Part shown: positions 20,641 through 63,566 of the stretch, piece after piece | Numbering within the stretch: position 1 is the first letter of the stretch | Layout of the letters: each line of letters opens with the position of its first letter | Source: Artemia franciscana | Taxonomy: Eukaryota > Arthropoda > Branchiopoda > Anostraca > Artemiidae | Assembly: GCF_032884065.1 (NCBI RefSeq) | Contig: NC_088863.1 | Coordinates: 41,882,880 to 41,946,879 of the forward strand | DNA length: 64,000 nt | Direction of reading: 5' to 3' | Made by a program: the position numbers and the translations under genes | Notes under the pieces: model-generated | What the model was told of the DNA's origin: nothing | Databases searched by the model: none | Seen by the model: only the letters and a program-made list of their open reading frames with translations

Positions 20641-20709
20641 TTAAAAGACAATCTTGAGACCAGTTCTTGACTTCAGAACCAGCTGTGCTGGTCCTTCTTA
20701 AAAAGGTGA

Positions 20710-22454: not shown

Positions 22455-23004
22455 TATACAGCTGACTGAAAGTGTATGCAGGAGGACCACCAAATACATC
22501 TCTGGACTTGAAGAGAAACTATATAGTGAAAGTTGATCTACTGTAAAACTCTCATCTTTAACCTTCTAATGCAGATGTAGTGACATGGTACTGATATATA
22601 AATATATTGAACAACCCCAAAATAAGCTCTATACTTGGTCATCTAGAGAATGACAAAAATGATGTCATGCTAAGAAGCTTCAGAAGTCCAGAGTTGACAG
22701 CAGAAAATATAAAAAACTTTTTAAGCCAAAGGTTTATCAATGATTGGACCTGTTTAAGTCAGGAGACCATGTCTCTGACATCAGCTATCGTTTTAAAAAT
22801 GAGACTAAACAAAGAGTCAGAGGCCAAATCTTCAAGATACAACTGGGGCTGCCTATCATCTGTGTTTTGTATATAGTGATTAATATGTGTGTATATATAG
22901 CCTATGTAAAGGAGTTGGGCTACAATGCTGATACTCCTAGTCATACCCAATCAGCTTGTCTACTGTATCAGAAATTGATGTTGTGCAACAAGGGTAGGTA
23001 AATT
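22455..23004. other. Unassigned spacer with short open frames
   Basis: Overlapping plus-strand frames at 22607-22876 and 22744-23001 (89 and 85 codons) are not recognisable. There is no clear exon structure or repeat. Confidence 0.3.
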
Positions 23005-34765: not shown

Positions 34766-35786
34766 ATGTCGAATGAGATAGAAAGACTTGTGCATAATGC
34801 TTTGCTAAATTATTTATCGCGAGCGCTCCAAGCAAATAAGACTGATGAAATTTGCGAAAAGGCAATGGGATTTTATGACAAGGATACGATTATAAAAGCT
34901 AAGGATACACTTTGGCACTATTCAAACTAACTGGATCAAATTGCCGAAATTCGTAATTTTTGATCCTACGGAGGTCCCAACTACGCCTGGTGAATTGAGT
35001 GCTATTGTTCCTCAAAAAGTGAGAGAAATATCCAATAATTTGAAGGACTTTATTGAAAGTGAGAAAAAAGCCCGTGCAGCTGAGAAACTTGCTACATCCA
35101 TAAATCAATCAGTCACTCCACCGGCCAAGCCTTCCTATGCAGTTATTCTCAAGAAGTCCCCCTCTGACCTTAAAAAGCCTGAATCCCGTAAAGCTTATCT
35201 GGAGCATTTTTGTGGAGAAGCTAGTGGGAATATAATCGAGCTCCGTCCCAGTAGAGACGCCTGGAAAGTAGTCACAAAGGATAAAAGTGGTGCTGAATCT
35301 ATTATGTCACGCATAACCGGGAATAACCCTGAAGTCGAGCCTAAACTCCAATGCCCCTCTCTTTTCGGTATTATCCGTTATGTTCCTGAAGATCTGAATT
35401 AAAATAGCCCATGTGATCTGATTGCCAACTGTTTGAAAGCAACTCAAATCCGAAACACCCGTTCGTTTAAGTTTCTTTTTGAGTCTAAAGAGGACCTTGA
35501 GTCTTCTGTTCGCTTTCCACCCATCATAGGGTACGGAAGACTCCCCATTAGTATATTTCAACGCTTGCCACCCCAATGCTTTTCTTGCCAGTCATATCGT
35601 CATTTTACGTCTGCGTGCTCAGGTACCCGAAAATGTTCCAGGTGGGGTGAGGCTGGCCACTCCACAACCAAAGATAATCCTTGTACCAAGGCACTTAAGT
35701 GTGCTCTTTGCAATTCATCCGACCACCCATGTTACACTTTTAAATGTCCTGTCACTCAGTCTCTTCTAAAGAATTCCAATGCCTGA
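34766..35786 (+). pseudogene. LINE ORF1 (zinc-knuckle nucleic-acid-binding protein), broken
   Basis: ORF1 proteins bind the element RNA in the cytoplasmic particle. The ATG at 34766 opens a reading of 54 codons with an N-terminal domain (MSNEIERLVHNALLNYL onward) that ends at a TAA near 34930. The reading continues in another frame from about 34941 to 35402, and after an in-frame stop resumes at 35433-35786. The C-terminal part holds a knuckle series: CFSCQSYRHFTSAC is an intact C-x2-C-x4-H-x4-C. The second has lost its second cysteine (CSRWGEAGH). A third, CALCNSSDH, follows. The final codons overlap the start of ORF2 by eight bases, a usual LINE arrangement. Confidence 0.75.
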
Positions 35787-38254: not shown

Positions 38255-39875
38255 ATTATATAAAAAAAAAACAAGTTTTTTCAACTGAAAGTAAGGAGCC
38301 ACATTAAAACTTAAAACGAACAGAAATTACTTCGTATATGAAAGGGGCTGCTTCCTCATCAACGCCCCGCTCTTTACGCTAAAGTTTGACTCTTTCTCTC
38401 AACTCTTCTTTTTAAAACAGTAAAAAACTTTAGCGTAAAGAGCGGGGCGTTGATGAGGAAGCAGCCCCTTTCATATACGAAGTAATTTCTGTTCGTTTTA
38501 AGTTTTAATGTGGCTCCTTACTTTCAGTTGAAAAAACTTGTTTTTTTTATTTAATTTCTGAACGTTTTTGAATCAATGCATGTTTTGATTTTGGCTCTCC
38601 GCAGAGGAATTATTAAAACGAAATTTGTATATTTATTTATTTTTTTGGCTAAATGGCTTTCTCATAATTTTGATCGAATGATTTTGAGAAAAAAAGAGCG
38701 GGGGAGGAAGGCTAGTTGCCCTCCAATTTTTTGGTTAATTAAAAAGGCAACTAGAACTTTTAATTTTTTACGAATCTTTTTATCAGTAAAGATATACGTA
38801 ACTTATAAATTAGCTTACGTAAAGAATTTTTTATTCTCATGTTTTAATACACATATGAGAGGGTTCGCCCCCTCGTCAGTACCTCTCTCTTTACACTAAA
38901 TCTTAAATTTTGTCCCAACTCGTTAAGAATGACCCCTGAATCTCAAAAACCGTAGAATAAATAGTTGACATTACTAAAAATACTTTAGCGTAAAGAGCGA
39001 TGTATTAGGAGGAGGTGAACCCCTCATTTTGGTAATAATTTTTGTTCGTTTTAAGTTTTAATGCTGCTCCTTACTTCCAGCTGAAAAAAACTTTTTCATA
39101 TGAAAGTTCCCCCAGTATATCCTCCTCTTCTCAACCCCTTCCCCAACCAAAAAACCCTCCTGAAAACGCCTGTACACTTCCCAATAACCATTACTATATG
39201 TAAGCACTGGTCAAAGTTTGTAACTTATAGCCCCTCCCACGGGGACTGGGGTGGAGTAAGTCGTCTCCAAAGACATAGTTATAAGGTTTTTCGACTACGT
39301 TGAATAAAATGGCTATCTCAGAATTATGATCCGGTGACTTCGGGAAAATAATTAGCGTGGGAGGGGGCCTAGGTGCCCTCCAATTTTTTTGGTCACTTAA
39401 AAAGGGCACTAGAACTTTTCATTTCCGTAAGAATGAGCCCTCTCGCAACATTCTAGGACAACTGGGTCGATACGATTACCCCTGGGGAAAAAAACAAAAA
39501 ACAAACAAATAAATAAACACGCATCCGTGATCTGCCTTCTGGCAAAAAATACAAAATTCCTCATTTTTGTATATAGGAGCTTGAAACTTCTACAGTAGGG
39601 GTCTCTGATACGCTGAATATGATGGTGTGATTTTCATTAAAATTTTATAACATTTAGGAGGTGTTTCCTCCTATTTTCTAAAATAACGCAAATTTTCTCA
39701 GGCTCGTAACTTTTGATGCGTAAGACTAAACTTGATGAAACTTATATATTTAAAATCAGCATTAAAATGCAATTCTTTTGATTTAGCTATTGGTATCAAA
39801 ATTCCATTTTTTAGAGTTTGGTTTCTATTGAGCCGGGTCGCTCCTTACTACAGTTCGTTACCACGAACTGTTTGA
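38255..39875 (+). repeat. Foldback composite element, copy D, inserted in the LINE
   Basis: A complete copy of about 1620 bp. The hairpin is at 38262-38540 (arms about 38283-38382 and 38425-38525), followed by both core monomers and the 3' palindrome plus TTTGA. Two features set it apart. It lacks the small second hairpin seen in copies A, C, E and F. And its hairpin loop (TTTGACTCTTTCTC onward) is inverted relative to the rest of the element when compared with copies B, C, E and F. Because it sits inside the LINE, which sits inside the hAT element, it is the youngest insertion of the three. Confidence 0.85.
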
Positions 39876-42930: not shown

Positions 42931-43058
42931 TATTTCTTTGTTTTATTCCGTGTATAAATTATCAATTTTAAACACTACTTGCTGCTCTATCTCATGAGAG
43001 AAAATGTAATTTTTATTTATATTTTTATTGGACAAAGCATTATTACTGTGTTTTATAG

Positions 43059-43315
43059 CGAAAAATCCTACAAATCCAACATGGCATACTGAAGTCACTG
43101 AGAAGTTTAAAGGAATTTTAGCAACTGATAGACTTCGAGAAATACCCTGTTTAGAATCTGCACCAAAAGAAAACCTGCTGGATGGCCAACTTGTTGTTTT
43201 TAAGGGCATGATTCAAGATATGTTTGATCCGGAATATTTCTTTGATTCTTATGAAGGAGAAACAAGCACTGGAGAAAAAGTTATGAAGACAGGACGCTTT
43301 CGCGATACCATTGAT
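43059..43315 (+). CDS. MCMBP: MCM complex-binding protein, exon 2
   Basis: This exon encodes residues 20-105 (the first codon shared with exon 1). It covers the conserved N-terminal region of MCMBP: NPTNPTWHTEVTEKF, then the strongly conserved FKGMIQDMFDPEYF and TGRFRDTID, aligning with 'FRCMIQDMFDPEFY' and 'FGKYRD' of vertebrate proteins. MCMBP acts in the nucleus on MCM2-7, in a form where it takes the place of MCM2. The acceptor is TGTGTTTTATAG with a pyrimidine-rich lead. The donor after GAT is GTAAGT, a perfect U2-type match, in phase 0. In-frame sequence upstream of the acceptor is non-conserved, which supports the splice site over a start codon here. Confidence 0.93.
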
Positions 43316-43659
43316 GTAAGTTGTTAAACTCTTAAGTCTTCGTGTGCTTGAAGACTGTGCCAAAGTTTACATACCAACAATCAATAAATAAAAATTAAAT
43401 TAAAAAGCCTTGTTTTAAGGAGGTATTGTGAAATAGTTGTTCAACACTACTTTTAAATCAGACTGATGCTTGCATTTTGAATAAATTGATGGTATTTAAT
43501 TTGAAAATAAACACGCAGATTCTTGCAGTGTAGATTTCTAAAACAAAAGAAATACCGCATTATCTTTTCTAAAATAGGGTTGTTGACTATTTTAGAATGA
43601 ACAACTTGAATATATGAATGAACAACTAATTCTTAAAACGTGTAACGCTTAAATTGAAT

Positions 43660-46180
43660 CAAGCTTAAAACGAACAAAAATTACTACAAATAAGAGTTTC
43701 GCTACTCTCCCCTTCCCTAACTGTAAACGTCTAAAGCCTATGGTGCTTTACTGAAAACAATTTATATTACAAATATTTTTTTTCTGTACTTGTCACAAAT
43801 TATAACATTGAAAATAAAAATGAAAATTACAGTGAAGTAAGATCTTGAATTGAGCTTCCAGCGATTAATGTCATTATATATTAAATATTCAGTTTGATTG
43901 TATTAGTTCTTTCCAATACTGTTCAAGACGCATTTAGTTTTAACTTCAAACAAGAGTTTGGCTACTGCCCCTTCCCTAACTGTAAAAGTCTAAAGCCTAC
44001 TGCGTCATTGGTGCTTTACTGAAAACGAATCATATTATAAATTTTTTCTTTGTTACTTTTTATAATATTGAAATAAAAATAAAAATTGTAGTGAAATAAA
44101 ATTTGGAACTGATGAGCTTTCAGAATTAATATCATTATATATCAAATATTCGGTTTAAATATTAGTTCTTTCCAGGACTGTTCAAGAAACAAATAGCTTT
44201 CAGTAAAGAGCCAATGCACAGTAGGCTTTATACTTTTACAATTAGGGAACGGGCTAGTAGCCAACCCTTATTTGCAGTGATTTCGTTCGTTTTAAGCTTG
44301 ATTTGCATATTCAGTTTAAGTGTTACTTGTTTTTGGATTTATTTCTTCATGTACATTATTACCTGTTTTATGTTTGTTTGCTATGATTGTTTATCTAATT
44401 TCTGCTCGTTCTAGGTTTCATTTATTCTTTAATAGATATTTTGGTCGTTTTGAGTTTGGAGTTTCAATTTTTCCAACAGTCCCCATTTCAAAATTTTTCG
44501 TCGGATCCATTTGTGGGAAAGAAGTGCAAGAGAGAGAGACTTCTGCTCTCCAATCACTTTTGACTCTTGAAAATGGGACTAAAACTTTCGATTCTTCAAT
44601 AAAAACCTTATATGTTAAAAATGAATAAACAAAATAACTTATAGCCCTTACCCTGGGGGCCCGGGGAGGGAAAGTCAGCCTTGGAGGCATAAGTATTTTG
44701 TCTTTGGACTATTTTGAACAAACTGGCTATCTCAAAATTTTGGTCAGATCCATTTTGGGGAAAGGAGTCTCAGGAAGAGGAGGCTCTGGTTGCCTCCAAT
44801 CACTTTTGACTCTAAAAAGAGAACTAGAACTTTCAATTTCCAGTCAAAAGAGCCTCTACCACAATTTATACGATCACCTCTTCTGTACAAGCCATATATG
44901 CCCCAGGGCATAATGTGCAAACCTTGCCTCCGGGCTGTAGGGGGTTATTTCAATCCTGGTGGCATTGTTGTATTATCTTTGAACTATTTTGAACAACATG
45001 GCTATATCAGAATTTCGACTGATATAGCCTGAGAATTTGTGGAAAAGAGGGCTGTGGGGGGACTAGTTGCCTTCCGATTACTTTTGACTCTGAAAAAGGA
45101 GCCAAAACTTTCAATTTTCAACTAAATGAGACTCTTACAAAGTTTATACAACTAGCTCTTCCATAAAAACTTTATATGCCCCGGGGCATTAATTACAACC
45201 CTTGACCCCGGGATCTTGGGGGCTGTGTCAACCCTGAATGCATTGTTTTATGACCTTTGGACTATTCTAAACAAAATAGTTATCTCAAAGTTTCGATCGT
45301 ATTCCTTTGGGGAAAAGATGGCATAAGGGGAGCTACTTTCCCTACGATCACTGTTAACTCCCAAAGATGGAACTAGAACTTTCAATTTTCATTCAAATGA
45401 GCCTCCTCCAAAGTTTATACTGACACCCCTCCCATAAAACCTTTTATGCCCCTGGAGCATAACTTGCAACCCTTGCCGTCAGTCTCTAAGGGTTGTATCG
45501 ACCCCCGAGGTATTGTTAAATGATACTTGGACTATTTTGGAGAAACGTCTATCCCAAAATTTCGGTCAGATGCATTTGAGTACAAGAGGAGACGGGGAGC
45601 TAGTTGCGCTCCGGTCACTTTTGACTCTTAAAAAGGGAGCTTGAACTCCCAAATTCAAATTAAATAACTTCCTTCAAAGTTTATACGACCACACCTTTTC
45701 AAACACCAAAAACAAGAAGAACATAGGGAATTTCGTCGTTATTTACGACCACCTCTTTCATAAAAATATTATACGTCTCCGTGGCATAACTTTCAACACT
45801 TATCACAGGGCTCTGAAGAGTTGTGTCGATCCCAGATTTTTTGTTATCTTATGTTTGGACTATCTTTTTTTGATCTTTGGAGGCATTGTTATATGATCTT
45901 TGGAATATTTTGAACAAGATGGCTATCTATAAATATTGATCGGATGCGTTTTGGGAACGGAGGGTGGGGGGATAGTTAACCTCCTATCAATATTGATTCT
46001 TCAAAAGGGCACTATAACTTTAGAATTTCAGTCGAATGACCCCCCCCCCGAAGTTTATGCGACCACTCCTTCCATGTGAAGTGCCTCTGAAAAAAAAACA
46101 CACACACAATAAAACGCTTAAACCTTGTGGCCTTTACTATAGGCAACGCTAGTGCGTTACCTCTGATTAGTATCATACAG
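43660..46180 (+). repeat. Second-family foldback element: U hairpin, V module and 275-bp monomer array
   Basis: The left arm (about 43670-43760, AAAACGAACAAAAATTACTA to GCTTTACTGAAAAC) is duplicated directly near 43940-44030 and returns inverted at about 44195-44300. The core array follows. The anchor 'GCATTGTT...TTTGGACTATTTT' occurs at about 44688, 44962, 45240, 45511 and 45884, so spacing is 274, 278, 271 and then 373 bp. It closes with the box TATAGGCAACGCTAGTGCGT near 46140-46160. Confidence 0.75.
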
Positions 46181-46855
46181 TAGGGATTCTTGGAACGAAA
46201 AATGTATTTCCCACTTTGAGTTTTGTGCTGAACTAGACAATGGTGAGGGTTTATCAGCTTCAAGAACCAATGTGAGCACCCTTGATATTTTGGGGGTTCA
46301 CACCAGGACTCCGAAGCTGGAGTTCCAGGTTTTTGGAGGTCGGTCCACAATCCTGAGGGTATGTAATTCAGACCGAAAGTAAGCAGCTCTAAGCCAATAT
46401 ATCAAGAGTCTATTGTCTAAAGCTCTTATCTTTTTAATGCAAATACCTGAAGTTCCTCCCACGATATCTGCTCCGAGAAATAGGCACATTAGAATGAGAT
46501 CCCAAATATGGCGGACTTGGTTCACTTTGTGCAATGCTATGAAAGAAGTACTGAAAAGTGAGCGTCTGAAACATAGTGCTACTTTTTGTCTTTGCGTCTA
46601 ATCTGCACTGCACGTGGACATCTTACAGATCTTTTTTTTTTTATTATTGAAGTGTTCTTGTTTTTTTTTCCTCCTTTAATGCTCTGATTCTCCTTTTTGA
46701 AAGAGCGAACAAAATATAATAATTATTATTACAAAACCTGACGCTTGTTAATCATCTTTTCCAGGCAATTTTGCTTGGTATTATAGGGATGAATTGTAAA
46801 AAAAAATCCAAGTTTTTAGACTTGACATTTAAAAAAATGAACCTGCTGATAAAAA
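46181..46855. other. Unassigned spacer in MCMBP intron 2
   Basis: Short frames on both strands (46298-46534 minus, 46413-46601 plus) are not recognisable. Confidence 0.3.
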
Positions 46856-48595
46856 TCAAACAGTTCGTGGTAACGAGTAAGGAGCGACCCGGCTCAATAG
46901 TAACCAAAACTCTAAAAAATTGAATTTTGATATCAATAGCTACATCAAAAGAATCGCGTTTTAATGCTGATTTTAAATATATAAGTTTCATCAAGTTTAG
47001 TCTTACCCATCAAAAGTTACGAGCCTGAGAAAATTTGCCCTATTTAGGAAAATAGGGGGAAACACCCTCTAAAAGTCGTAGGATCTTAGAGAAAATGACA
47101 CCATCAGATTCAACGTATCAGAGAACCCTACTGTAGAAGTTTCAAGCTCCTATCTACAAAAATGTGGAATTTTGTATTTTTTGCCAGAAGACAAATCACG
47201 GGTGCGTGTTTATTTGTTTTTTTTTTTTTTTCTTTTCCCCAGGGGTCATCGTATCGACCAAGTGGTCCTAGAATGTCGCAAGAGGGCTCATTCTAACGGA
47301 AATGAAAAGTTCTAGTGCCCTTTTTAAGTGACCAAAAAAATTGGAGGGCATCTAGGCCCCCTCCCACGCTCATTTTTTTCCCAAAGTCAACGGATCAAAA
47401 TTTTGAGATAGCCATTTTGTTCAGCATAGTCAAAAACCATAATAACTATGTCTTTGGGGATGACTTACTCCCCCACAATCCCTGGGGGAGGGGCTGCAAG
47501 TTACAAACTTTGACCAGTGTTTACATATAGTAATGGTTATTGGGAAGTGTACAGACGTTTTCAGGGGGATTTTATTTTGTTTGGGGGTGGGGCTGAGGAG
47601 AGGGGGCTATGTTGGAGGATCTTTCCTTGGAGGAATCTGTCATGGGGGAAGAAAAATTCAATGAAAAGGGCGCAGGATTCTCTAGCATTACTATAAGAAA
47701 ACAATGAAAAATAAACATGAAAACGTTTTTTCGAATGAAAGGAAGAAGTAGCATTGAAACTTAAAACGAACAGAGATTATTACGCATATGAGGGGTTCTA
47801 AAAACACTTTAGCATAAAGAGCGAGGTATTTAGGAGGAGATAAATACCTCGCTCTTTATGCTAAAGTATTTTTAGTAATTTCAACTATTTATTCTACGGC
47901 CTTTCTGATTCAGGGGTAATTCTTAAAGAATTGGGACAAAACTTACTATTTAGTGTAAAGAACGAGGTATTAACGAGGGTACAAACCCCCCTCATATACA
48001 TAATAATAATTAAAGAATATAAAAGTTTGTTACGTAAGTTAATTCTAAAGTTACGTATATTTTTTGCTAATAAAAAAAAATCATTAAAATTAAAATTAAT
48101 AGTTGCCTTTTTATGTAACCGAGAAATTGCATGGCAACTAGGCCTCCTTCCCCATCCCATATTTCTCAAAATCGTATGATCAAAACTAAGAGAAAGCCAT
48201 TTAGCCAAAAAAGGAATTAATATGCAAATTTCATTTGAATATTTTACGTGTGGAGAGTCAAAATCAAACATGCATTAATTCAAAAACGTTCAGAAATTAC
48301 ATAAAAAAAACTAGCTTTTTTAACTGAAAGTAAGGAGCGACATTAAAACTTAAAACGAACAGAAATTACTCCGTATATGAAATGGATTGATCCCTCCGCA
48401 ATCCCTCGCTCTTTACGCTAAAGTTTGACTCTTTGCCACAATTCTGCTTTTTAAAACAATTAGAAGCTTTAGCGTAAAGAGCGAGGGATTGCGGAGGGAA
48501 CAATCCATTTCATATACGGAGTAATTTCTGTTCGTTTTAAGTTTTAATGTCGCTCCTTACTTTCAGTTAAAAAAAACTAGTTTTTTTTATGTAAT
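46856..48595 (-). repeat. Foldback composite element, copy E (full length)
   Basis: A minus-orientation copy of 1740 bp running from TCAAACAGTTCGTGG (3' end of the element) to TTTTATGTAAT (5' end). The terminal palindrome has lost part of one arm (GGTAACGAGTAAGG). The small hairpin is at about 47797-47880 and the large hairpin at about 48305-48590. It is very close to copies A, C and F, so a recent burst is likely. Confidence 0.85.
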
Positions 48596-50115
48596 TTTAA
48601 AGAAGGAACGATCTTTATTTAGCTGAAATCACGCGTGATAAATTGAGCCCAAGCATCAGTTTTTGGGTGTCTTTGTCTTGGGTTAAAAATTTTTTCTTTG
48701 AAAAACAAAACAACAAAAAAAAAACAAAAAAAACAAACAAACGAATTGAGGGTCAAATTTTGATTTGATTTTCAATGTTTGGTAAATAAAGTAAATTCTT
48801 CTAATGAAAATAAATCCCGTATGTGCAGCCTGAAATCTTATAGTTTATTTTGTAAGTATGGTATGATAGACGAATTTTCTAGTATTGTTTGTTATTTTTA
48901 TCACTAGTTGTTATCTGCTAATCTATTTTTACTTCAAAGTGATAACTTTAATAAGTGCCTCATATCTAGCAGACTCGAACATATTGCGTCTTTATGCAAA
49001 AATAATTTGAGTCATGCTGGTGACCTCTTTGTTTGATCATTTTTCCCACTGCAGTTAGTAACCTACTTAAGGTTTGTGAGAGCTTTTCTGCGATATTACA
49101 CATAACTCTGTAAAGAAAAGTGAATAGGCTTTCATCTGCAACACTCTCTGTTGCCTGTTATTCTTCTTGTTCGACTATGCAGTATTCGTATGACTTTCGT
49201 CATGTCATCAGTTTCATTAGGCTTATTTTTAGTGAGCATTCATTTGATGATGCTCATATTTGTTATGCTTTAAGGTCAGTGTATCTCAAAGGCCTACATG
49301 AACCAGTCTGATCATGATCTGCACAAACTGATAGTCATGGAAAATGAATCCTTACTTTTATGCATAGTCCGTCTCGTTATGACCGTACTACTATGTTGTT
49401 GATTTTCGTTTGCCAAAGTTTTAATACATCCATATTGGTGCCCGTGGTTCTTTCTGTGGTTGCCTTCTGTCATCAGATAATGGGCTAGTTGTAGCAATAT
49501 TTTCCCTTTTTTGCGGCTTTTGTTGCCTGAATATTAAAAGCTGTATGAGCCTTCTGACATTGGCAAGGCTATTTGTGTTTTCGATTTCTACTAGCTTTGT
49601 TTTCATTTTTTGTTCTGTCTTAAACAGTTATTTTACCTGAATTGAAATATTAAAGTAAGTTAAACTGTTCATGAGCCCCTTATACAGGAAAATGCTCTGT
49701 CAAAATATCACGTCTTTTGCAGTTTTGGCTGTCATTTTCTTATTAATGTTTTTTTTGCTGTTTTGACAAACTTAAAGCCCCCCCCCCCTCTCCACGTGAA
49801 TTCCTGTACTCGTGCCAGTCCATAGCTTATAAATATAATAGTTAATGGAAAAAACATTATATGTCTTTTTTTTTAATGCAATGCACTGTTAAGGATAAAG
49901 CTATTTTTGAATAATTAACTGTTGTTAAGTGAGCATCCTTGCTGTAGTCTAAGCACTTTGTTTCAGCACTAAAGTTTTAGTTTTCTTGAAGTTTTGTTAT
50001 GCTATGAGCTGATTTTGAAAAACAGAATTATGTTCTCATTCAAAGCTTTTTGATAATTTGGTTCTCATTTTCTCATTCTGCACGCGGCAGGTCTACATCA
50101 ATCTATTATTTTCAG

Positions 50116-50217
50116 GCAACGCTTCAAACAAATCACGATAGCCTCACCACGAGGACAATGGATCGTATGTCATATTACTGCATCAGTGTTCCTGCAGAAT
50201 CACCTTGGGTCAAAAAG
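50116..50217 (+). CDS. MCMBP: MCM complex-binding protein, exon 3
   Basis: This exon encodes 34 residues (106-139), beginning ATLQTNHDSLTT and containing DRMSYYCISVPAESPWVKK. The segment YYCISVPAESPWVK matches the conserved 'FYCVPVPGESTWVK' of vertebrate MCMBP. The acceptor TATTATTTTCAG is good. A second AG 25 nt upstream would shift the frame. The exon ends after AAG at 50217 in phase 0, directly before ATATCCTTT, which is a U12-type donor. The two GT dinucleotides nearby (GTCAAA at 50209, GTTTTT at 50233) are poor donors. The conserved WVK residues lie immediately before the boundary, as expected. Confidence 0.92.
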
Positions 50218-50539
50218 ATATCCTTTTTACAAGTTTTTATGCCAAGCTACTTTTCAGTTTAAAAAAAAGATGAAATTGAAATTATGTATAAGGGGGTAAC
50301 AGTTTTGAAAAAAGTTAAATCAAATAAATATTGTCTGAATATTTTGATTCTTTATTCAGACATTTTTTTTAAAAGCAAAAAAAAGGAAAAAGTAAATGTT
50401 AGAAAAACAATCAATGTTAGAAAATCAAATAGAATCAATGGCACGTTGCATTTAAACACGTTTTCTTTTGCAAGAATTGTTAGAAAAGACCTGCAAATTG
50501 AAGTGACAAAACGTGCAAGTCAAGGTTTAACTATTCTTA

Positions 50540-53500
50540 GGCTGCGCAATGGCGCTGCCTAAGTAAAGAACAATGTGGGCACAATGTATTATTTATTTTT
50601 TTTTTCTTTTTGGTTTGTTTTAGACCAGGGAACTTCGTGTCGAAGGAGTTATCATAGAAACTCCAAAAAGGACTCATTTGACTGGAAATTGAAAGGGGTA
50701 TTGCCCTTTTCAATAGTCAAAAGCTATTGGAGGGCAACACTCCCCCCTCCCAGGCCCATCATTTCCCCATACATCCAGTCGAAATTTTGAGATTGCCATT
50801 TGTTCAAAAATAGTCCAGAGAATAAATTCTTTGGGATTGACAGAATCCCCCAGAGTCTGGGAGCTGCAATTTGTATATCGGGAGAAACTTCTTCAACACT
50901 TTTTAATCTTGAAACAAATAGTATTTTTTATTTAATCTTATACCTCCTGAAGTTGATTTGAAAAAAAAAACAACAAACTTAATATCATTCCCAAAAGATT
51001 ATATCTATGCTGGTTGACAACCTGTATACACTTCCACTCTATTTATTTAAATTGTAAAAGTAAAATTAGTATAGTATTGGTCGCAAAAGTTTCAACTTAA
51101 TACCCCCAGTCGTTCTTGATATATTGCTAAGGTGTCTTATTTACAACTCTACACGAAATGCGTTTTGATTTAGCACAAAGCAATATTTAGTTTCAAAGCA
51201 TAATGGGTTAATTGCTTAATTGTGGGGGGTTGACATGAGCAATATCCCTAAAGACATAGTTGCTGGATCGTTCTACTATGCTGGACAAAATAGATGCCTT
51301 AATAGATGACTGGATGCATTTACAAAATGAATGGGCTTGAGAGAGGGGCTGCTTGCCCTTCAATCTTTTTTAACTCTTAAAAAGAGCACCAAAAATTTTA
51401 ATTTTTAGTCAAATTAGCTCCTTTGAAATTTTCAATGATTTTTCTAGCTATTATAGAGTGGTGCTACCTATGATATTGCTTATATATTCTTTTGAAAACT
51501 TACATGCATACAGTTTTTTCGTTTAATAGAAGCACAATAGCATTTTTCGTTTCTTCAACATTCCCTTCAACGCACGCTGAAATTTTCTGCTTAATACCAT
51601 CAACCGTCCCTGAAGTATGTTTGAGGCGTCTGCTTAACATCCTGTGTGGGCATAGTGTATTCCGAATTAGTTTCATACAGTTTCTTTATATCCCAAATTT
51701 TCCACCTTAACATCCTTAGTTTTAAATATCAGTATTAGTAGTAGTAGCAGTAGAATCAATTGTAGTAGCCTAAGTTTTAGCGACAGTGGTAGTAATAAAA
51801 GTAGTAATAATATTAACAGTAATAGTAGTATGAGTAAAAGCAGTAGAATTAGTATGCAAATAATTTATGTGTTTAGTTCAACGTCCCTCACAACAAGCCC
51901 TGTTAGTTTCAGCTTCACACACCAAACTGTTCTTAAGATATTGCTGTTACACCCTTTTGACAACCTGTATAAAGGTGGCGTGTTGTGATTCAGTTCACCT
52001 CCCCCTCCCTTAAAACTCGTTGAAAGTTTCACCTTCATACCCTTGTAATAGTAGTCACAGTAGTAATATTGATATTACTTGTAATAGTATTGAATAGTGG
52101 TAGTACTACTAGCAGCATTAGTATTAACATATTGCCTTTTGGTAAGTATAATATCCCTCCCATCAAGTCCTAGAAGTTTCAGCTTAATATAATTAGCCAT
52201 TGCTATGTCATTGCTGATATGTCCTCTTGATAACCTGTATGTTCATATACTTCTTAAAATTTTGATATCAATGCTCTTAGCCTTACAAGTAATTGCAATA
52301 GAAATTGTAGTAGAATTATTAGTAGTATTAGTAGGAAATTTAGCAGTAACCATAGCATTTGAAGTAGTGTGCACACATTGCCTTTTAGTGAGATGATCTT
52401 CCCCTTTAAGCATCCTCTTAAAGTTCCAACTTAATACCCAAATGAATTCTTGAGATACGCTATTTTGACAATGTGCATGCACGTAGTGTCTTTCGATTTA
52501 GTTCAAGTTTCCCCTCAATACTGTAGGAGTAGTGTGGTAGTAGTGATGGTGGTAGTTGTAGTAGTATTTATAGCGTGCAAATATTGCCTTTTTGACCATC
52601 TCCCATATCATTTCCGGAATTTTCCTAATTAATATACTCGGTTATTAATGTGTTACATCCTTTCGGCAATCCGTATACACATTACATGTTTTGATCTAGT
52701 TCAACACTCCCCTCAACATTCTCTGAGAGGTTCGCCAATGCCCTTCGCCTTCTTGGAAAGTAAAGTTCAAACATGCATTCATATCTAATTAATATTTACT
52801 ATATGTAAACAATGAACGAATTTCCAAACTTACAGCCTTTGTTCTGATGACTGTGGGGAGTTTGATATTCCTAGAGACATAATTACTGGACCTTTCAACA
52901 ATGCTGAACAAAATAGCTCTCTTAAAATTTCAATCGGGTGTGTTTTGGGTAATGACAGGCTTGGGGCAGGGGGCTTATTGCCCTACATTCACTTTTGACT
53001 CTTAAATGGGCATTAGCACTTCCGACTTCCAATCAAATGGGCTCCATCTGATCCAAAGTTTTACGACCATTTGTTCCTTAGAAACCTTATCTGCCCTGGG
53101 GCATACCTTACAACCCTTGCCCTGGGCCCGGGGATTGTGTCCACCCTAAAGACATATATATTTCGGGCTATTGGTAACAAAATCGCTATGTAACAAATTC
53201 ATTTGATTGCGTTTTGGGAAAAGACGATGTCAGGGAAAGGGGCTAGTATCTTTCCAGAATCTTTGACTCTTAAAAGGGAACTAGAAATATATATTTCCAA
53301 GTAAATCAGCCTCTTTTCAACTTCACACAACCAACCCTTCCATAAAAATCTTATAGGCCCTCGGGGTATAACTTACAACCTTTTCGCTGAGGGCCGCGGG
53401 GGAGGGGGAAAGGGCTGTCATCCTCAAAGACATAATTTCTAGGCCTCTAAACTACGCTAAAAATGGCTATTTCAAAATTTCGATTAGATGTGTTTGGGGA

Positions 53501-53720
53501 AATAGTGGGTATAGGAGGGGGGTCAGGTACCGTCCAATCACTTTCGACTATTAAAAGGGCGCTAGCCCTTTCAATTTCCAATTGAATGAGCCCTTTTCGA
53601 AGTTTCTATGACAACTTTTGTACGAAGTGCCCTAGTCTAAAAAAAACAGACAGAAAAAAAGATAGTGCATTATGCCCACATCGCTCATTACTTAGGCAGC
53701 GCTATTGCACCGCCTATGAA
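50540..53720. repeat. Core-monomer arrays bounded by inverted GC hairpin boxes
   Basis: The left boundary near 50540 carries GGCTGCGCAATGGCGCTGCC followed by TAAGTAAAG. The right boundary near 53690 carries TTACTTAGGCAGCGCTATTG, its inverse. Monomers next to the left boundary (50640-50900) are in minus orientation. From about 50980 to 53640 they are in plus orientation. Degenerate TAG/GTA tracts lie at about 51725-51860, 52040-52115, 52270-52360 and 52520-52570. No coding sequence is seen. Confidence 0.65.
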
Positions 53721-53929
53721 AACTAAAAAGGTATAAAACGTTATTTTTTCAGTGAAAAAGACTATGTCAATAAAAAACGAATACAAATTAATTTAAAAAA
53801 TTGCCACAAAATAAGTTTTTCAAAGAAAAGTAAAGAGCTCCATTAAGCCAAGAGTGAGCAAAAATAAAGTCAAATAATCTTTGAAGCGTAAATCTGCCAC
53901 AAATCACTATCAGTAAATAAATGAAACTA

Positions 53930-54720
53930 ACAATGAACAGAAATTACAATAAATAGCCGGTTCAAACTCAAAACGAGCAAAAATTAGCATGAACAGGGCT
54001 GATAACCCCTGTGCCTTCTCAAGACCAGAACACAGTTTGCGCTTTACTGAAAATAAAACACACTTGAAATGTGTTCACCTTTCTTACTTTCATTAATGAA
54101 AATTTACATTTCTTCGCTAAGATTTTGATAAGTTTTCATTTATGAAAGTAAGAAAGGTGAAAACATTTCTAGCGCAATTTCGTTCAGTAAAGCGCAAATT
54201 GTGTTCTGATCTTAAGAAGGCATAGAGGTTTCAACTTAATACCCCCCGTCGTTCTCGATATATTGCTGAGGTTTCATATTGGCAACCATTTAACACAATG
54301 CCTTTTGATTTATTTTAGAGCAAAATTCAGTTTTAAAGTATAATGGGGCTAGCACACCTTATATCCCTAAAGACATAGTTTTTGGGCTGTTCTACTATGC
54401 TGAACAAAATGGCTGTCTCAAAATTTCGACTGGAGGCATTTGGAAAATGAATGGGCTTGAGAGAAGAGCTGCTTGCCCTCCAATCTCTTGTTGCTCTTAA
54501 AAAGGGCACCAGACACTCGCGCTGTAATGGGAGTGCAAGGGGGAGGACTTACCCCTTGACATATCTAGTAAAAATATTTTGAACAAGTAAAAACAAACAT
54601 TTTAAAAATATTTTCTTTTCAGCAAAGTGCAAATTATGTTCTAATCTTGAGAAAGCATGGGGTTTGTCAGCACTTCTTTTGTTAATTTTTGCGCGTTTTG
54701 AGTTTGACTCGGTTATTTAT
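53930..54720 (+). repeat. Second-family hairpin with short core monomer
   Basis: The left arm (about 54016-54110) runs GCCTTCTCAAGACCAGAAC to TTTACTGAAA to ACCTTTCTTACTTTCAT. Its complement lies at about 54138-54225. A single core monomer follows (54230-54560). Another inverted arm copy occurs at about 54627-54712 (AGCAAAGTGCAAATTATGTT). Confidence 0.7.
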
Positions 54721-54805
54721 TGTATGATTTAAATAAACAAAATACTTTTAAATGTTTTAACTTTAATAAGTTAAAAAATGTTAAAACTTTAAGGAATATA
54801 TATAT

Positions 54806-55975
54806 CAAACAGATGGTGGTAACCAACCGTAAGTAAGGAGCGACCTGGCTCTATAGTAGCCAAAACTCTAAAAAACGAAGTTTTGATACAAATAGATATA
54901 TCAACAGAATTGGATTTTTATGCTGATTATAGATATTTAAGTTTTATTAAGTTTAGTCATACATGTCAAAGGTTACATGTCGGAGATAATTTGCCTTATT
55001 TCCAAGAAAAAGGGGGGAAACACGCCCTAAAAGTCATAAAGTCTTAATGAAAGTCTCACGATCAGCTTCAGCGTATCAGGAAACCCTATCATAGAGCTTT
55101 CAAGCTCCTATCTGAAAAAATGTGGATTTTTGTTTTGCCAGAAGAAAGATCATGGATGTGTGTTTTTTGTTCTAGGATTGATTTTATCGATCCAGTGGTC
55201 ATATAATTTCGAGAGGGAAAACAAAAACTAAAAGTTTTAGTTCACCTTTTCATGTGAGCAAAAACTTGGAGGGCAACTAGGCCCCCTCCCACGCTCATCG
55301 TTTCCCAGAGTCACCGGATCAAAATTTTGAGATAGCCATTTTGTTCAACATAGTCGAAAAATCTAATAACTATGTCTTTGAGGACGACTTAATCCCACAC
55401 TGTCTTCGGGGGAAGGGCTGCAAGTTGTGAACTTTGCCCATTGTTCACCATAGTATTGGTTATTGAGAAGTATACAGACAGTTTCAGCAGGGATTTTTCT
55501 GGGGGTGATCGAGTGGAGAGGGTTACGTGGGAGGATTTTTCCATGAAGGATTTTTTCATTGGGGAAGATAATTTCCATGAAGGGGAACGCTGGATTTCCC
55601 AGCATTATTTAAAAAACAGTCAGAAATTAACTTGATAAAAACAAAAAAGTATTTTCAACTGAAAATAAGGAGCAACATTAAAACTTAATAAGAACAGAAA
55701 TTACTGCGTATATTAGATGGTTCGCCCCCTCTTCAATATCTCGCTCTTTACGCTAAAGTATTTTAAGTAATTTCAAAAGAGCTATTTGTGCTAATTAAAC
55801 GGCTTTTAGGATTCAGGAGGCATTCTTAAAGGATTGGAACAAAATTCGAACTTTGGTGTAAAGAGCAAGATATTGACGAGGGGGTAAACCCCCTCATATT
55901 ACGAATATAAGAGAGTTTCTTACCCTCGTCAGTACCTCGCTCTATACGCTGAAGTTAGAATTTTGTTAAATAATG
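54806..55975 (-). repeat. Foldback composite element, diverged copy G
   Basis: Minus orientation, starting at TCAAACAGATGGTGG with a damaged palindrome. The second core monomer and the junction segment (about 55480-55600) are recognisable. The large hairpin is missing or split. Confidence 0.6.
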
Positions 55976-56129
55976 GCCGATATAAACAATGATTTGTTTG
56001 TGATATTTTTCGACCAATCTTAGCATCTAATATTATCTTAAGCAGCTTCTTAACTATGATTTTTATTTGATAATAAACCAGAGATGTTGTATGTGTTCGG
56101 CTCGTGATTGTTATTAAGCAAAACAAAAA

Positions 56130-56950
56130 ACGAGTTTTTTCCAACTGAAAGTAAGGAACAGCATTAAAACTTAAAACGAACAGAAATTATTATGTATGTA
56201 AGGGGGTTGTTCCCTTCTCAGTTCCTCAATCTTTGCGCTAATGTTTGACTTTTTGTTCCAATTATTTAAGGATGACTCCTGACACACAGGACCGTTTAAT
56301 TAAAATAATTAGCTTTTTACAAATTCAAAATCTGCGAAAATTGCGGATCAAACAATTTGTGGTAACGAACTGTAAGTAAGGAGCATTCCCGCTCAATAAG
56401 GAAATTCAACGTTCTAATGCCTTTTTTAAGTGACACAAAATGGAGTGCAATTAGGCCCCTCCCCCGCCACTTCTTTTCTCAAAACTTTAAGTTAGCCATT
56501 TTGTTCATCAGAGTTTAAAGGCCCAATAATTATGCCTTAGTGTATAACATAACCCCCCTCCCCCACAGCTCCTGGGGAAAGGTCTTTAAGTTATAAAATC
56601 TGCCCATTGTTTACGCATGGTTTTTGTTATTGGGATACATGCATACATTTTCGGGTGGGGTGGAGCAAATTTTTTAAATATAAAAAATGAGTTTTTTTTA
56701 CTGAAACTTAAAATGAACAAAAATTATTCTGTATGTGAAAGGGGCTGTCCCCTTTTCAACGCCTCGCTCTTTACGCTAAAGTTTGACTCTTTCTCACAGC
56801 TCTATTTTTTAAAACTATAAAAAAATATAGCGTAAAGAGTGAGACGTGGCGGAGGGGACAGCCCCTTTCGTATACGGAATAATTTATGTTCATTTTAAGT
56901 TTTAATATCGCTCCTTATTTCCAGTAGAAAAAACTTGTTTTTTTTTTTCC
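56130..56950 (-). repeat. Foldback fragments, copy H
   Basis: This stretch holds half of a large hairpin (56135-56270), then a new 3' end (TCAAACAATTTGTGGTAACG, from about 56348) with a shortened core monomer, then a full but diverged large hairpin at about 56692-56945. Confidence 0.6.
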
Positions 56951-56999
56951 TCCAAATGTATACTAAACTGACAATCCGTAGTAATTTTTTTCGGTGTGC

Positions 57000-57835
57000 A
57001 AATTGTGTTGTCTTGAGAAGGTATGGGGGTTGTCTAAGACATAATTTCCAGACCTTTCTGCTACACTGAACGAAATGGCTTTCTCAAAATTTTGATCAAG
57101 ATGTGTTTTGGTAATTGATGGGCGTGGGGGGAGGGCTTGTTGCCCTTAAATCACTTTTGACTAATAAGAAGGGAACTAGCCCTTTCAGTGTCCAATCGAA
57201 TGAGCCTTTTTCGGAGTTTCTATGACAGCAAGTGACCGTCTCATAATTCCTATCAGATGCATTACGGGAAAATACGAGGCTTGGAGGGGTGGGGGTTATC
57301 CACCCTCCAATCACTCTGAATCTTAAAAAGGGCACTACAACTCCTGATTACCAATCCAAAGAGCCTCCTTCGAAGTTTATACAATAACCCTTTCTGTATA
57401 TACCTTGTATGCCGCCAGGGCATAACTTACCTTGCCCTGAGGACTGTGGGGGGTTGTCATCCTCAAAGACATAATTTCCGGTCCAATTACTTTGAACGGA
57501 ATGGCTATTTCAACATTTTTATTGTATGTTTTCGGGGATATGGTGGGCGAGGGAGGGGGGCTAGTTACTCTTCAATCACTTTCGACCATTTAAAAGGGCA
57601 TTTGTCCTTTCAGTTTTTAATCGAATGAGCTGTTTTCGAAGTTTCTACGACGACAAATGGCCTTCTCAAAATTTCTATCAGCTGCATTTCGGTAATATAC
57701 GATGTGTGGGGGGGGGGGGGGGTATCCACCCTCCGATCTCTCTGAGTCTTAAAAGAACACTAGAACTTGTGACTACGAATCCAATGAGCCCCCTCCCAAG
57801 TTTATACGATCACCCTTTCTGTATTATTAATTATT
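57000..57835 (+). repeat. Core-monomer array
   Basis: About two longer units carry GAACGAAATGGCTTTCTC, TTGCCCTTAAATCACTTTTG and AAGGGCACTACAACTCCTGA. It is directly abutted by foldback copy F. Confidence 0.65.
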
Positions 57836-57840
57836 ATTAT

Positions 57841-59630
57841 AAGACACAATATGAATTATTATTATCAAACAGTTCGTGGTAACGAACTGTAGTAAGGAGC
57901 GATCCGGCTCAATAGTAACCAAAACTCTAAAAAATTGAATTTTGATATCATTAGCTACATCAAAAGAATCGCATTTTAATGCTGATTTTAAATATATAAG
58001 TTTCATCAAGTTTAGTCTTACCCATCAAAAGTTACGAGCCTGAGAAAATTTGCCTTATTTAGGAAAATAGGGGGAAACACCCCCTAAAAGTCGTAGGATC
58101 TTAACGAAAATGACACCATCAGATTCAGCGTATCAGAGAACCCTACTGTAGAAGTTTCAAGCTCCTATCTACAAAAATGTGGAATTTTGAATTTTTTGCC
58201 AGAAGACAAATCACGGGTGCGTGTTTATTTGTTTGTTTGTTTTTTTGTTTTTTTTCTTTTCCCCAGGGGTCATCGTATCGACCAAGTGGTCCTAGAATGT
58301 CGCAAGAGGGCTCATTCTAACGGAAATGAAAAGTTCTAGTGCCCTTTTTAAGTGACCAAAAAAATTGGAGGGCACCTAGGCCCCCTCCCACGCTCATTTT
58401 TTGTCCAAAGTCAACAGATCAAAATTTTGAGATAGCCATTTTGTTCTGCATAGTCAAAAACCATAATAACTATGTCTTTGGGAATGACTTACTCCCCCAA
58501 AGTCCCTGGGGGTGGGGCTGCAACTTACAAACTTCGACCAGTGTTTACATATAATAATGGTTATTGGGAAGTGTACAGTCGGTTTCAGGGGATTTTTTTT
58601 TGGTTTTGGGGGTGGGGTTGAGGGGAGGGGGCTATGTGGGAGGATCTTTCCATGGAGAAATGTGTCATTGGGGAACAGAAATTCAGTGAAAAGGTCGCAG
58701 GATTTTCTAAAATTACTATAAAAAAACAATGAAAAAATTAACATGGAAAATTTTTTTTCAATTGAAAGTAAAGAGTAGCATTGAAACTTAAAACGAACAG
58801 AGATTATTACGCATGTGAGGGATTCTAAAAATACTTTAGCATAAAGAGCGAGGTATTTAGGAGGAGATAAATACCTCGCTCTTTATGCTATAGTATTTTT
58901 AGTAATTTCAACTATTCATTCTACGGCCTTTCTGATTCAGGGGTCATTCTTAAAGAATTGGGACAAAACTTGCGATTTAGTGTAAAGAACGAGGTATTAA
59001 CGAGGGTACAAGCCCTCTCATATACATAATAAAAATTAAAGAATATAAAAGTTTGTTACGTAAGATAATTCTTAAGTTACGTATATTTTTTACTAATAGA
59101 AAAATTCGTTAAAAATAAAAATTTATAGTTGCCTTTTTATGTAACCGAAAAATTGCATGGCAACTAGGCCTCCTTTCCCATCCCTTATTTCTCAAAATCG
59201 TCTGATCAAAACTAAGAGAAAGCCATTTAGCCAAAAAAGGAATTAATATGCAAATTTCATTTTAATAATTTATGTGTGGAGAGCCAAAATCAAACATGCA
59301 TTAATTCAGAAACGTTCAGAAATTAAATAAAAAAAAATAGTTTTTTAAACTGAAAGTAAGGAGCGACATTAAAACTTAAAACGAACAGAAATTACTCCGC
59401 ATATGAAATGGGTTGTCCCCTCCGCAATCCCTCGCTCTTTACGCTAAAGTTTGACTCTTTGCCACAATTCTGCTTTTTAATACAATTAAAAGCTTTAGCG
59501 TAAAGAGCGAGGGATTGTGGAGGGGACAACCCATTTCATATACGGAGTAATTTCTGTTCGTTTTAAGTTTTAATGTCGCTCCTTACTTTCAGTTAAAAAA
59601 ACTTTTTTTTTTTTATTTAATAAGACACAA
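57841..59630 (-). repeat. Foldback composite element, copy F, with target-site duplication
   Basis: The element body is 57865-59621, minus orientation, and intact, with the complete 3' palindrome (CAGTTCGTGG-TA-ACGAACTG as read here), the small hairpin at about 58826-58905 and the large hairpin at about 59330-59610. AAGACACAA occurs at 57841-57849 and again at 59622-59630, outside both ends. Between the left duplicate and the element lies TATGAATTATTATTA, which in element orientation is an ATA-rich tail after TTTGA. Confidence 0.8.
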
Positions 59631-60150
59631 AGACAGCGAGTCTAAACAATTTGAGGCCTAGATCTGGAGAATTTCCTAAGCAAATTCTTTCTTCTCTCCA
59701 CGTTCCCGGAATAGAATTACACTAAATTTCCTCCGTTGAATCCTAGTTGAGAGTCAACTTTTTCCCATCAAGATTGGAAGTGCTCTCTCTTTCCCGATAT
59801 ACGATACAAAACACAAGAATTTCTTTTTCTCTTCTTTTTTTCTCTCTCTTTCAATCGGGAAAGCGGAAGATTTATGGGACGACCAATTAAGCGTGGGGGT
59901 CCTTGGCAATATTTTTAGAATAGGTTGTTAAGAGTGAAAATATTATTAATAAAGGGGAAAAGTCCGTTAATCCTTAGTAAGAAGAAAAGTTTATATGATT
60001 AACTTATTTTGTCGTTAGATTAGGTATTTTCGCGCTGTATTCTGTTTCTGTGCGTGCTTGTAATTTGTACTGTTGTTTAATTTTCTTGCTTGTGTGTTAT
60101 TTATTTATATTTTTGTGTGTATATGGCCCTTAGGCTTTTGAAATACACTT
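59631..60150. other. Unassigned spacer in MCMBP intron 3
   Basis: No gene or known repeat was recognised. A short CTAT tract lies at about 60150-60168. Confidence 0.35.
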
Positions 60151-60169
60151 ATCTATCTATCTATCTATA

Positions 60170-62075
60170 CCTTATATGGCCCCGGGACATAACGTACAAC
60201 TCTTGCCCTGAAGACAGTGGGGTGGGGGTTGCCATCCTCAAAGACAATTTCCGGACCTTTTAATTACGTTGAACAAAATGGCTATCTCAAAATCTTTATT
60301 GGATGTGTTTGAGAAAATGATGGGCGTGGGAGGGGGATTAGTTGCCCTCCAATAACTTTCGACTATTAAAAAGGCCGCTTGCCCTTTCAATTTCCAATCG
60401 AATGAGCTGTTTTCAAAGTTTGATCGAATGAGCTGTTTTCAAAATTGAAATCAGTTGCGTTTCGAGAAAATACGAGGGGGGATATCTACCCTCCGATCAC
60501 TCTGAATCTTAAAAAGAGCACTAGAAATTATAATTACCAATCAAATGAGCCCCCTCCAAAGTTTATATGATTACCTTTTCTATATATACCTTATATGCCC
60601 CCAGGGTTTGACTTACAACCCTTGCCTCGAGGGTTCTGGGGGGTTCCCATCCTCAAAGACATAATTTTCGGACCTTTCAATTAAGTTGAACAAAATGACC
60701 ATCTAAAATTTTTATTGGATGGGTTTGGGGAAATGGTGGACGTGAGAGGGGGGTTAGTTGCCCTCCAATCACTTTCGACTGTTAAGAAAGGCACTAGCCC
60801 TTTCAATATCCAATTGGATGAGCTCTTTGAAATTTTAAGACAACAAATGACCATCTAAATATTTCTATCAGATGCATTTCGGGACAATATGAGGTGTGTG
60901 GGGTGGGGTTGCCTACCCTCTGATCACTCTGAATCTTAAAAAGAATGCTAGAACTTTTGATTACCAATCCTGTGACCCCCCTCTGAAGTTTTGCCGATCA
61001 CGCTTTCTATATATACGTTATATGCCACCAGGGTTTTACTTACAACCCTTGCCCTGAGGGGTGTAGGGGTTTGTCAACCTCAAAGACATAATTTCCGGCC
61101 CTTTCAACTACGTGGAACAAGATGGCTATCTCAAAATTTGGATTGGATATTTCTGAGGAAATGGAAGGCGTGGGAGGAGGGTTAGTTGGCCTCCAATCAC
61201 TTTCGAATATTAAAAAGAGCACTAGCCCTTTCAATTTCCAATCGAAAGAGCTCTTTTCGAAGTTTTTATGACAACAAATGGCCATCTGAGAATTTCTATC
61301 AAATATATTTTGGGAAAATAGGAGGTGTGGGGGGGCGGTATCCACCCTCTGAATGCTCCAAATTTTAAAAAAGGACACTAGAACATCTGATTTCCAACCC
61401 AATGAGTCAATTCCGAAGTTTCTACGATCACACTTTCTTCACAAACTCTGTAGGCCCCAGGGTGTAACTTAAAACCTTTACCCTAAGAGCTTTGGCGGGT
61501 CTTCATCCTCAAAGACATAGTTTTGGGACCTTTTAACTACGCTGAACAAAATTTGCATCTCAAAATTTTGATTGGATGTGTTTGGGGAAATGATGGGCGT
61601 AAGAGGGGGGTTAGTTTCCCTCTTATCACTTTCGACTATTAAAGGGGCGCTAGCCATTTCGAACCTAATAAACCCTTTTAGAGGTTTCTACGACAACAAT
61701 TGGCCATCTCAAAATATGTGTCAAATGCATTTCTGGAAAATACGAGGCGTGAGGGGATATCCACCTTCCGACCACTGAATCTTAAAAGAGGGCACTAGAA
61801 CTTTTGATTGCCCATCCAATGGGCCCCCTTCGAAGTTTACACGATCACCCTTTCTATATAAACCTTAAATGTCTCCAGGGCATAACTTACAACCCTTGCC
61901 CTTAGGGCTGTAGGTGGGGGGGGGGTTGTTATCCTCTAAGACGTAATTTCAGGACCTTTCAACTACGTTGAACAAAATGGTTGTCTCAGAATTTCGATTG
62001 AATGTGTTTGGGGAAATGTTGGGTGTAAGAGGGGGATTAATTGCCTTCCAATCACTTTCGATTGTGCTGCCTATG
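60170..62075 (+). repeat. Core-monomer array with 425-bp higher-order period
   Basis: The anchor AAAGACATAATTTCCGGACC recurs near 60241, 60656, 61082, 61511 and 61938, so the units are 415, 426, 429 and 427 bp. Each unit is made of two half-units: one with ATTAAAAAGGGC and ATTTCCAATCGAATGAGC, and one with CTGAATCTTAAAAAGGGCAC and CCAATC. The array ends in GTGCTGCCTATGA near 62065, a remnant of the 3' hairpin box. Confidence 0.8.
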
Positions 62076-62079
62076 ATAC

Positions 62080-63150
62080 ATTAAATAACATAGGAAATCT
62101 AAAGCACTCTAAGTGACACTACTTTTGGAAAATTGATAGGATTTTTCCATTCACTACCCTAGCAAAAGCATGTCGACTTCTTTAATTAGTATTAAGTTAA
62201 TTTGGTCCATTACATAAGGTTAATTTAAGTTGGTAATATAAGTTACAACATAGTTCATTTGATTCATTTACCAGTTATAGGAAATGATAACCTATCTCTA
62301 TGTGTACTATTATGCATAAAATTTATTTTGAAACTTCCTTCGTCACGTTCATGTTCAAATCTACATCAACGTTTTTTTTTTTTTACAATGTTTGTAGACT
62401 TGAAAAAAACGCATACCAATTTTTACAGTCTGTGTAATGGGGGGTGGATCAAAATTGTTCAGCAAACTTAACATTTTAAGAAGGGACTTACTGTATTTTT
62501 TTGTTAGTAATGTCTATTATCTAGCTTGGGTAAGCTCAACCAATGTAAAAATTTTCCACTATTACATGTTATTCTGTAAACCCTGCTGTTTTTGTCAAAT
62601 ATTTTATAGTATTTATTTAGCAATGATGTCGCTGGTAGTTGATTTTCGAAGTCTATTTGAAAGTTTGATTTTGGTAATGCCTCTTAACGGACAGATTTTT
62701 TTTACAATTTTTTTTCCTTTATTCTTTTTTCCATATTTCAATAGTATGGTTAATAGTTTTTACAAGATAATATCTACCGGTTAAAATGTGGTTAATATAA
62801 AGCAAATCTTTATTTATTAATTTCTTAATTTATATAGTTAATTTCGAAACCTTCTGAAACAGTACAATAATTACCCTTCTTTTTAATCTGAAACGAATGA
62901 TGCGACAAAACACAAAAATAATGCTTTATGCTAATAATTCATTGGTCTATACTACCCAAAAATACAAATTCTTTTTTTTTTTAAATGAAAATATCGACAA
63001 TCAGTTCTTGAATTTCTTTTTTTTTTCTCAATTATAAAAACTAATTAGTTCCCCAAATTTTTTGGATGCTCCATTTAGAAGAAAAGATTATAATGAGATG
63101 ACTGATTTACGTTTAAGAACCTGATTGCCAGTATGATATCGTTTTTCGGA
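62080..63150. other. Unassigned end of MCMBP intron 3
   Basis: AT-rich and apparently repeat-free. A 115-codon hydrophobic frame (62437-62784) is likely incidental: it is phenylalanine-rich because the DNA is T-rich. Confidence 0.35.
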
Positions 63151-63154
63151 AAAA

Positions 63155-63178
63155 TCCTTAACCACATTCTTTTCCTAC
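63155..63178 (+). other. MCMBP: U12-type branch site and AC acceptor
   Basis: TCCTTAAC at 63155-63162 matches the U12 snRNA-pairing branch consensus (TTCCTTAAC) in its last eight positions. The acceptor AC is at 63177-63178. Spacing from the branch adenosine to the splice point is about 17 nt, inside the short range typical of this intron class. There is no polypyrimidine-AG acceptor here. Confidence 0.85.
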
Positions 63179-63445
63179 ATCCAAAACCCATTGCTTTCTG
63201 ACAAAAACTCTCCTGATGTTCCTGTTGAAAGTCTCTCTGCCTCTGAGGCTCGTTTGTCCAAGCGTTCTTTAGAAGAAGACGATGTAAATATGGAAGACGG
63301 AAGTTCAAATGAAGCGAATAAGAGGCTTTGCACATCTCCAACCCCTGCTACAACAGAAAATTCTACGTTGACGCCTACTTTTGATTCGAAGAAGATACTA
63401 AATTTTCCAATCCCGAATGAAAGGGGAATCGGCTGTATAGTAAAA
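63179..63445 (+). CDS. MCMBP: MCM complex-binding protein, exon 4
   Basis: This exon encodes 89 residues (140-228). The first part (IQNPLLSDKNSPDV onward) is a poorly conserved linker. The acidic, basic stretch SKRSLEEDDVNMEDG corresponds to the 'HKRSYEDDDDMD' of vertebrate MCMBP. The end, LNFPIPNERGIGCIVK, matches 'LNFPLPGEKGPACLVK'. The linker is serine- and proline-rich and probably disordered. The donor after AAA is GTAAGT at 63446 (U2-type, phase 0). The next expected residues (V-Y-E-D-W) are not in the remaining 555 bp, so the gene continues beyond the window. Confidence 0.92.
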
Positions 63446-63566
63446 GTAAGTTTTTTATGTTTTTTTTCAGTTCCTCTGAGTATTTGTCACAAAAAACTGG
63501 TCCAAAAACATAAATCATTTGTAGATGTCTAATTATACGAGCATTGGCTGTATAGTAAAAGCTAGT
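63430..63566 (+). repeat. Duplicated exon-4 donor segment
   Basis: GGCTGTATAGTAAAAG at 63431-63446 recurs at 63546-63561, with flanking similarity on both sides (AATCGGCTG against GCATTGGCTG, then GTAAGTTTTTTATG against GCTAGTTTTTACG). In the second copy the donor GTAAGT has become GCTAGT, so it should not be used. Confidence 0.8.

Follow-up and report, generated by a model that had tools for sequence, protein, structure and literature searches.

We analysed a 64,000-nucleotide stretch of the Artemia franciscana genome (contig NC_088863.1, positions 41,882,880 to 41,946,879 of the forward strand; hereafter the window), in which the plus strand carries exons of MCMBP. The interval between two of these coding exons, positions 50218-63178 on the plus strand (12,961 bp), reads as a U12-type AT-AC intron, an assignment that we make from the sequence with a probability of about 0.9. 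The signals at its two ends and their register with the exons are directly observed, as are the reading frame, the fit of the joined product to its protein family and the repeat content of the interval.

Intron ends and the MCMBP exons

U12-type AT-AC introns have a highly conserved 5' splice site, with the consensus ATATCCTTT, and a conserved branch site, with the consensus TTCCTTRAY. The interval opens with ATATCCTTT (50218-50226, with C at position +5), which matches the 5' splice site consensus at 9/9 positions, and closes with TCCTTAAC-N13-TAC. The putative branch site TCCTTAAC lies at 63155-63162 and is the sole TCCTTRAY on the plus strand within the intron; extended by one base, ATCCTTAAC (63154-63162) agrees with the branch-site consensus at 8/9 positions. 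The branch A would be 63160 or 63161, which lie 18 and 17 nt upstream of the final base of the intron, and the AC 3' terminus occupies 63177-63178. Both of the features that PMC3584512 describes as defining U12 introns, the 5' splice site and the branch site, are present.

At the upstream junction (50217/50218) the sequence reads AAAAAG/ATATCCTTTTT, with the exon codons TGG GTC AAA AAG ahead of the donor. At the downstream junction (63178/63179) it reads CCTAC/ATCC, and TCCTTAACCACATTCTTTTCCTAC precedes the exon codons ATC CAA AAC. The AT-AC termini are in frame, in phase 0 on both sides, and both flanking exons are open. A first-pass annotation of this DNA had described a perfect minor-class AT-AC donor, a branch-site motif about 17 nt before the AC, and phase 0 on both exon sides of an interval with these boundaries; all of this was recovered from the sequence. 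A search of the 64-kb window against Rfam gave no match at the gathering score.

Motif presence by itself means nothing, because shuffled windows contain the donor 9-mer 1.57 times on average; the real window has it once, both strands counted. The branch-site-plus-TAC pattern was likewise found once, against an expectation of 0.65, and pairs of an AT-AC donor and a branch site within 15 kb arose 0.72 times per strand on average in 200 Markov sequences, 38% of which contained one or more such pairs. We therefore rejected bare motif presence as evidence; it is the register of the motifs with the exon ends, not their counts, that carries it. Under a first-order Markov model of one strand, and with interval widths of our own choosing, the donor 9-mer falls within 60 nt of its exon end with a chance of 7e-4, and the branch-site 8-mer falls within 30 nt of the opposite exon end with a chance of 8e-4. 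Taken together, the two signals at the exon ends have a joint chance of about 6e-7, which rises to 1e-5 when degenerate motifs are allowed.

An intron with AT-AC ends is not thereby assigned to one splicing pathway (PMC2831892), so this one could also be of U2 type and depend on the major spliceosome. According to the same source, however, G stands at position +5 in every U2-type AT-AC intron of sodium channel genes, whereas the base here is C, and both the donor and the branch site fit the U12 class. We consider a U2-type AT-AC intron extremely improbable.

MCMBP is represented on the plus strand by three collinear exons (43059-43315, 50116-50217 and 63179-63445). A tblastn search with human MCMBP (275 residues) matched 43052-43315 (E 2.75e-12), 50155-50217 (E 2.3e-4) and 63233-63448 (E 1.3e-4), and the next best match after these three reached only E 0.73. 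The 209-residue product of the three exons scores 133.1 bits against the Pfam family MCM_bind (PF09739; cut-off 25.6), in agreement with the earlier statement that the residues flanking the intron fit MCMBP.

The most upstream of the three exons (43059-43315), supported by tblastn, Pfam and its splice sites, has its start placed from the preceding TTTTATAG, in phase 1, and ends in phase 0 at GAT/GTAAGT. It is followed by a conventional GT-AG intron (43316-50115, plus strand, 6,800 bp, phase 0) with donor GTAAGT and acceptor TATTATTTTCAG. The two exons that flank the AT-AC interval, each supported by tblastn and Pfam, begin and end in phase 0: 50116-50217 comprises 34 codons (ATLQ...SPWVKK), and 63179-63445 comprises 89 codons (IQNP...CIVK) followed by AAA/GTAAGT. 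The U2-type sites of the gene are thus GAT/GTAAGT at 43316, TTTTCAG/ at 50115 and AAA/GTAAGT at 63446.

These data also bear on two explanations that would deny a single intron here. An interval of 13 kb could accommodate an unseen exon that would divide it into two introns; against this, the joined protein runs through the MCM_bind profile without a break (product residues 23-209 against profile positions 8-202), and the interval holds only the one TCCTTRAY on its plus strand. We regard an unseen exon as very unlikely. Because misjoins occur in repeats, which abound in this region, the boundary could in principle reflect an assembly misjoin or a decayed gene copy and not a true intron. The three exons are nevertheless ordered on one strand with intact frames and U2-type outer ends, and phase and U12 signals agree at both ends of the interval, which makes such an artefact exceedingly doubtful.

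A search for the start of MCMBP upstream of 43059, with 32 residues as query, did not locate the first exon or exons; the matches were at chance level (best E 0.38). The 209-residue product gave three pattern matches in viral contigs, with no relative among them, and, for a protein that joins part of exon 50116-50217 to exon 63179-63445, no match was obtained among solved structures at E values up to 1.

The plus strand of the window also holds five more U12-like GT-AG pairs, which derive from two donors. The shortest, 11786-12396 (611 bp), has flanks that are open for only about 37 and 35 codons; with such short open stretches, it was rejected as a U12 intron and is probably a chance decoy.

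Alternative joins across the interval

An in-frame TGA at 63134-63136 closes the downstream frame, and AG is absent from 63137-63178; therefore no GT-AG intron delivers the whole downstream exon in frame. The first-pass annotation had rightly reported that the nearest upstream AG runs into an in-frame TGA, which is this stop. Its wider claim, that no GT/AG combination preserves the frame, proved too strong. When nine donors in 50117-50300 were combined with 19 acceptors (first exon base in 62901-63330), 25 of the 171 pairs were open and in frame, although all of them have acceptors at 63232 or beyond and all lose coding sequence.

A conventional GT-AG intron could accordingly be drawn from nearby sites, for example with the donor TGG/GTCAAA (50209) or CAA/GTTTTT (50233) and an acceptor inside the downstream exon that would make 63248 or 63263 the first exon base. 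To its credit are the 25 open pairs and the presence of one acceptor of ordinary strength, described below. Its donors are poor: scored with a generic U2 matrix, the seven open-frame GT donors range from -12.3 to -1.8, compared with 3.7 and 4.0 for the two other donors observed in the gene, and a stronger GT donor at 50296 (1.2) sits behind a stop. Six of the 25 products, those ranked 1, 3, 4, 5, 8 and 10 by splice score, were scanned against MCM_bind, while the other 19 were not. They scored 81.7, 88.7, 108.4, 113.0, 114.6 and 119.6 bits, that is, 13.5-51.4 bits below the AT-AC product, and a GT-AG intron would in addition leave the U12 signals as a coincidence. We therefore judge a GT-AG intron unlikely.

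Among the eight products scanned, the AT-AC join gave the best family score. The eighth product uses a second AC (63186-63187), which is also in frame and yields a protein without three residues that scores 130.8 bits. Splicing to this AC may occur as a minor alternative.

Several observations weigh against the U12-type AT-AC assignment. The lead of the AT-AC product over that of the next AC is just 2.3 bits, and three of the six GT-AG products likewise align through the MCM_bind profile in one stretch. The U2 acceptor at 63273 scores 1.31, inside the range of the two other acceptors of the gene (0.72 and 2.36). Additionally, the distance of 17-18 nt from the branch A to the 3' end, though short, exceeds the optimum of 11-13 nt given in PMC3584512, and pyrimidines make up 13 of the 16 bases between the branch site and the intron end, whereas that source describes U12 introns as having no distinct tract.

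Intron length and repeat content

Repeats make up much of the interval. The share with another copy in the window is 69% for the AT-AC intron (13.0 kb), 57% for the upstream major intron (6.8 kb) and 25-26% for positions 1-43058. For comparison, the Artemia genome is reported to consist of 58% repeats, with an average intron of 3,458 bp and a GC content of 34% (PMC8406910).

The intron had initially been described as packed with recent transposable elements. The packing is borne out by the 69% that is repeated in the window; the word recent applies to one element only, because all three matches of at least 90% identity, among the 112 matches longer than 200 bp, involve the single element at 57863-59621. 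The other 109 matches show 65.6-89.1% identity. This dispersed element (plus strand, 1.76 kb) has a palindrome-like start and, near its end, a self-complementary stretch of 300 bases (59322-59621). It is 92.1% identical to 20709-22456 on the minus strand and 93.4% identical to 46855-48595 on the plus strand, which makes three near-full copies. A 31-base piece of it had no matches in viral contigs or genome contigs.

A tandem array occupies 60160-62061 on the plus strand, with a period of 427, 4.5 copies and 75% matches. Sequences at 57024-57824 and 53261-53615 are related to this array.

The length of the intron probably stems from repeat filling, as in the major intron beside it. Against growth by repeats alone, some insects have minor introns that are distinctly longer than their major ones (PMC10639083), and with a single pair of introns compared here the minor class may itself contribute to length.

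Outside the gene, a broken retroelement resembling a long interspersed nuclear element lies at 34896-38307 on the plus strand, with its pieces in separate open frames. They include an endonuclease-like piece (35946-36656), whose match to PF03372 (E 0.0012) falls below the cut-off, and a reverse transcriptase (37567-38307; PF00078, 53.4 bits); the other scanned pieces had no Pfam match.

Proposed splicing, origin and known minor introns

In the minor pathway, the U11 small nuclear ribonucleoprotein (snRNP) pairs with the 5' splice site and the U12 snRNP with the branch site, and U6atac, U4atac and U5 join later. From the sequence we infer that the MCMBP junction is spliced, and spliced by the minor spliceosome. 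The U11 snRNP would pair with ATATCCTTT at 50218 and the U12 snRNP with TCCTTAAC at 63155, U6atac, U4atac and U5 would then enter, and the codon AAG ending at 50217 would be linked to the codon ATC starting at 63179. If this is correct, the minor spliceosome of this animal spans a distance of 13 kb that consists mostly of repeats.

The MCMBP intron is probably an ancestral one, because U12-type introns have been reported in the human gene, where their retention was increased in two patients carrying variants of RNPC3 (PMC7612377). Its position may be homologous to that of a human U12 intron. In the scenario that we consider most likely, an ancestral MCMBP minor intron would have been kept in the lineage, and repeat insertion together with tandem growth would have lengthened its interior while the end signals stayed fixed. 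The complete scenario, in which an ancestral AT-AC minor intron survived the arthropod loss of minor introns and was enlarged to 13 kb through the insertion of repeats, is tentative, and we place it somewhat short of even odds. If it holds, the intron would be among the longest arthropod minor introns and would offer a natural experiment on whether the recognition of minor introns depends on short distances.

The finding adds a clear AT-AC minor intron for a replication gene, and the intron is of a known kind. Gene finders restricted to GT-AG introns would misannotate MCMBP here by clipping exons. The intron can also serve as a marker for tracing the loss of minor introns between lineages.

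How unusual such an intron is depends on the background of that loss. PMC10639083 describes a pronounced ancestral loss of minor introns in Pancrustacea, and a loss that is extreme yet incomplete in Diptera, Collembola and Acari, with apparently complete loss only in some mites, chironomids and two copepods. In the same source, the median length of minor introns scales roughly linearly with that of major introns. Against this background, it is within expectation that a gene rich in repeats has kept a long AT-AC intron. The first-pass annotation had stressed the rarity of the case. The sequence supports a U12-type AT-AC intron of MCMBP well, but the surprise less: U12-type introns are reported from human MCMBP, and long minor introns have precedents.

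Three known systems allow a closer comparison. The U12-type introns of human MCMBP share the gene and the intron class with the Artemia intron; the passage of PMC7612377 that reports them gives no position, subtype or length, and the likeness is one of gene and class only. The AT-AC introns of Drosophila melanogaster share class and subtype: PMC2831892 lists 19 U12 introns in this species, of which eight by its text, or nine by its table rows, are of the AT-AC subtype. Unlike in Artemia, the Drosophila gene CG3430, identified as MCMBP in PMC5538549, is absent from the 19 introns listed there. Insects such as Hermetia illucens show that long minor introns can be tolerated, the median minor intron of H. 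illucens being 4,019 bp compared with 105 bp for its major introns (PMC10639083), whereas the MCMBP intron reaches 12,961 bp.

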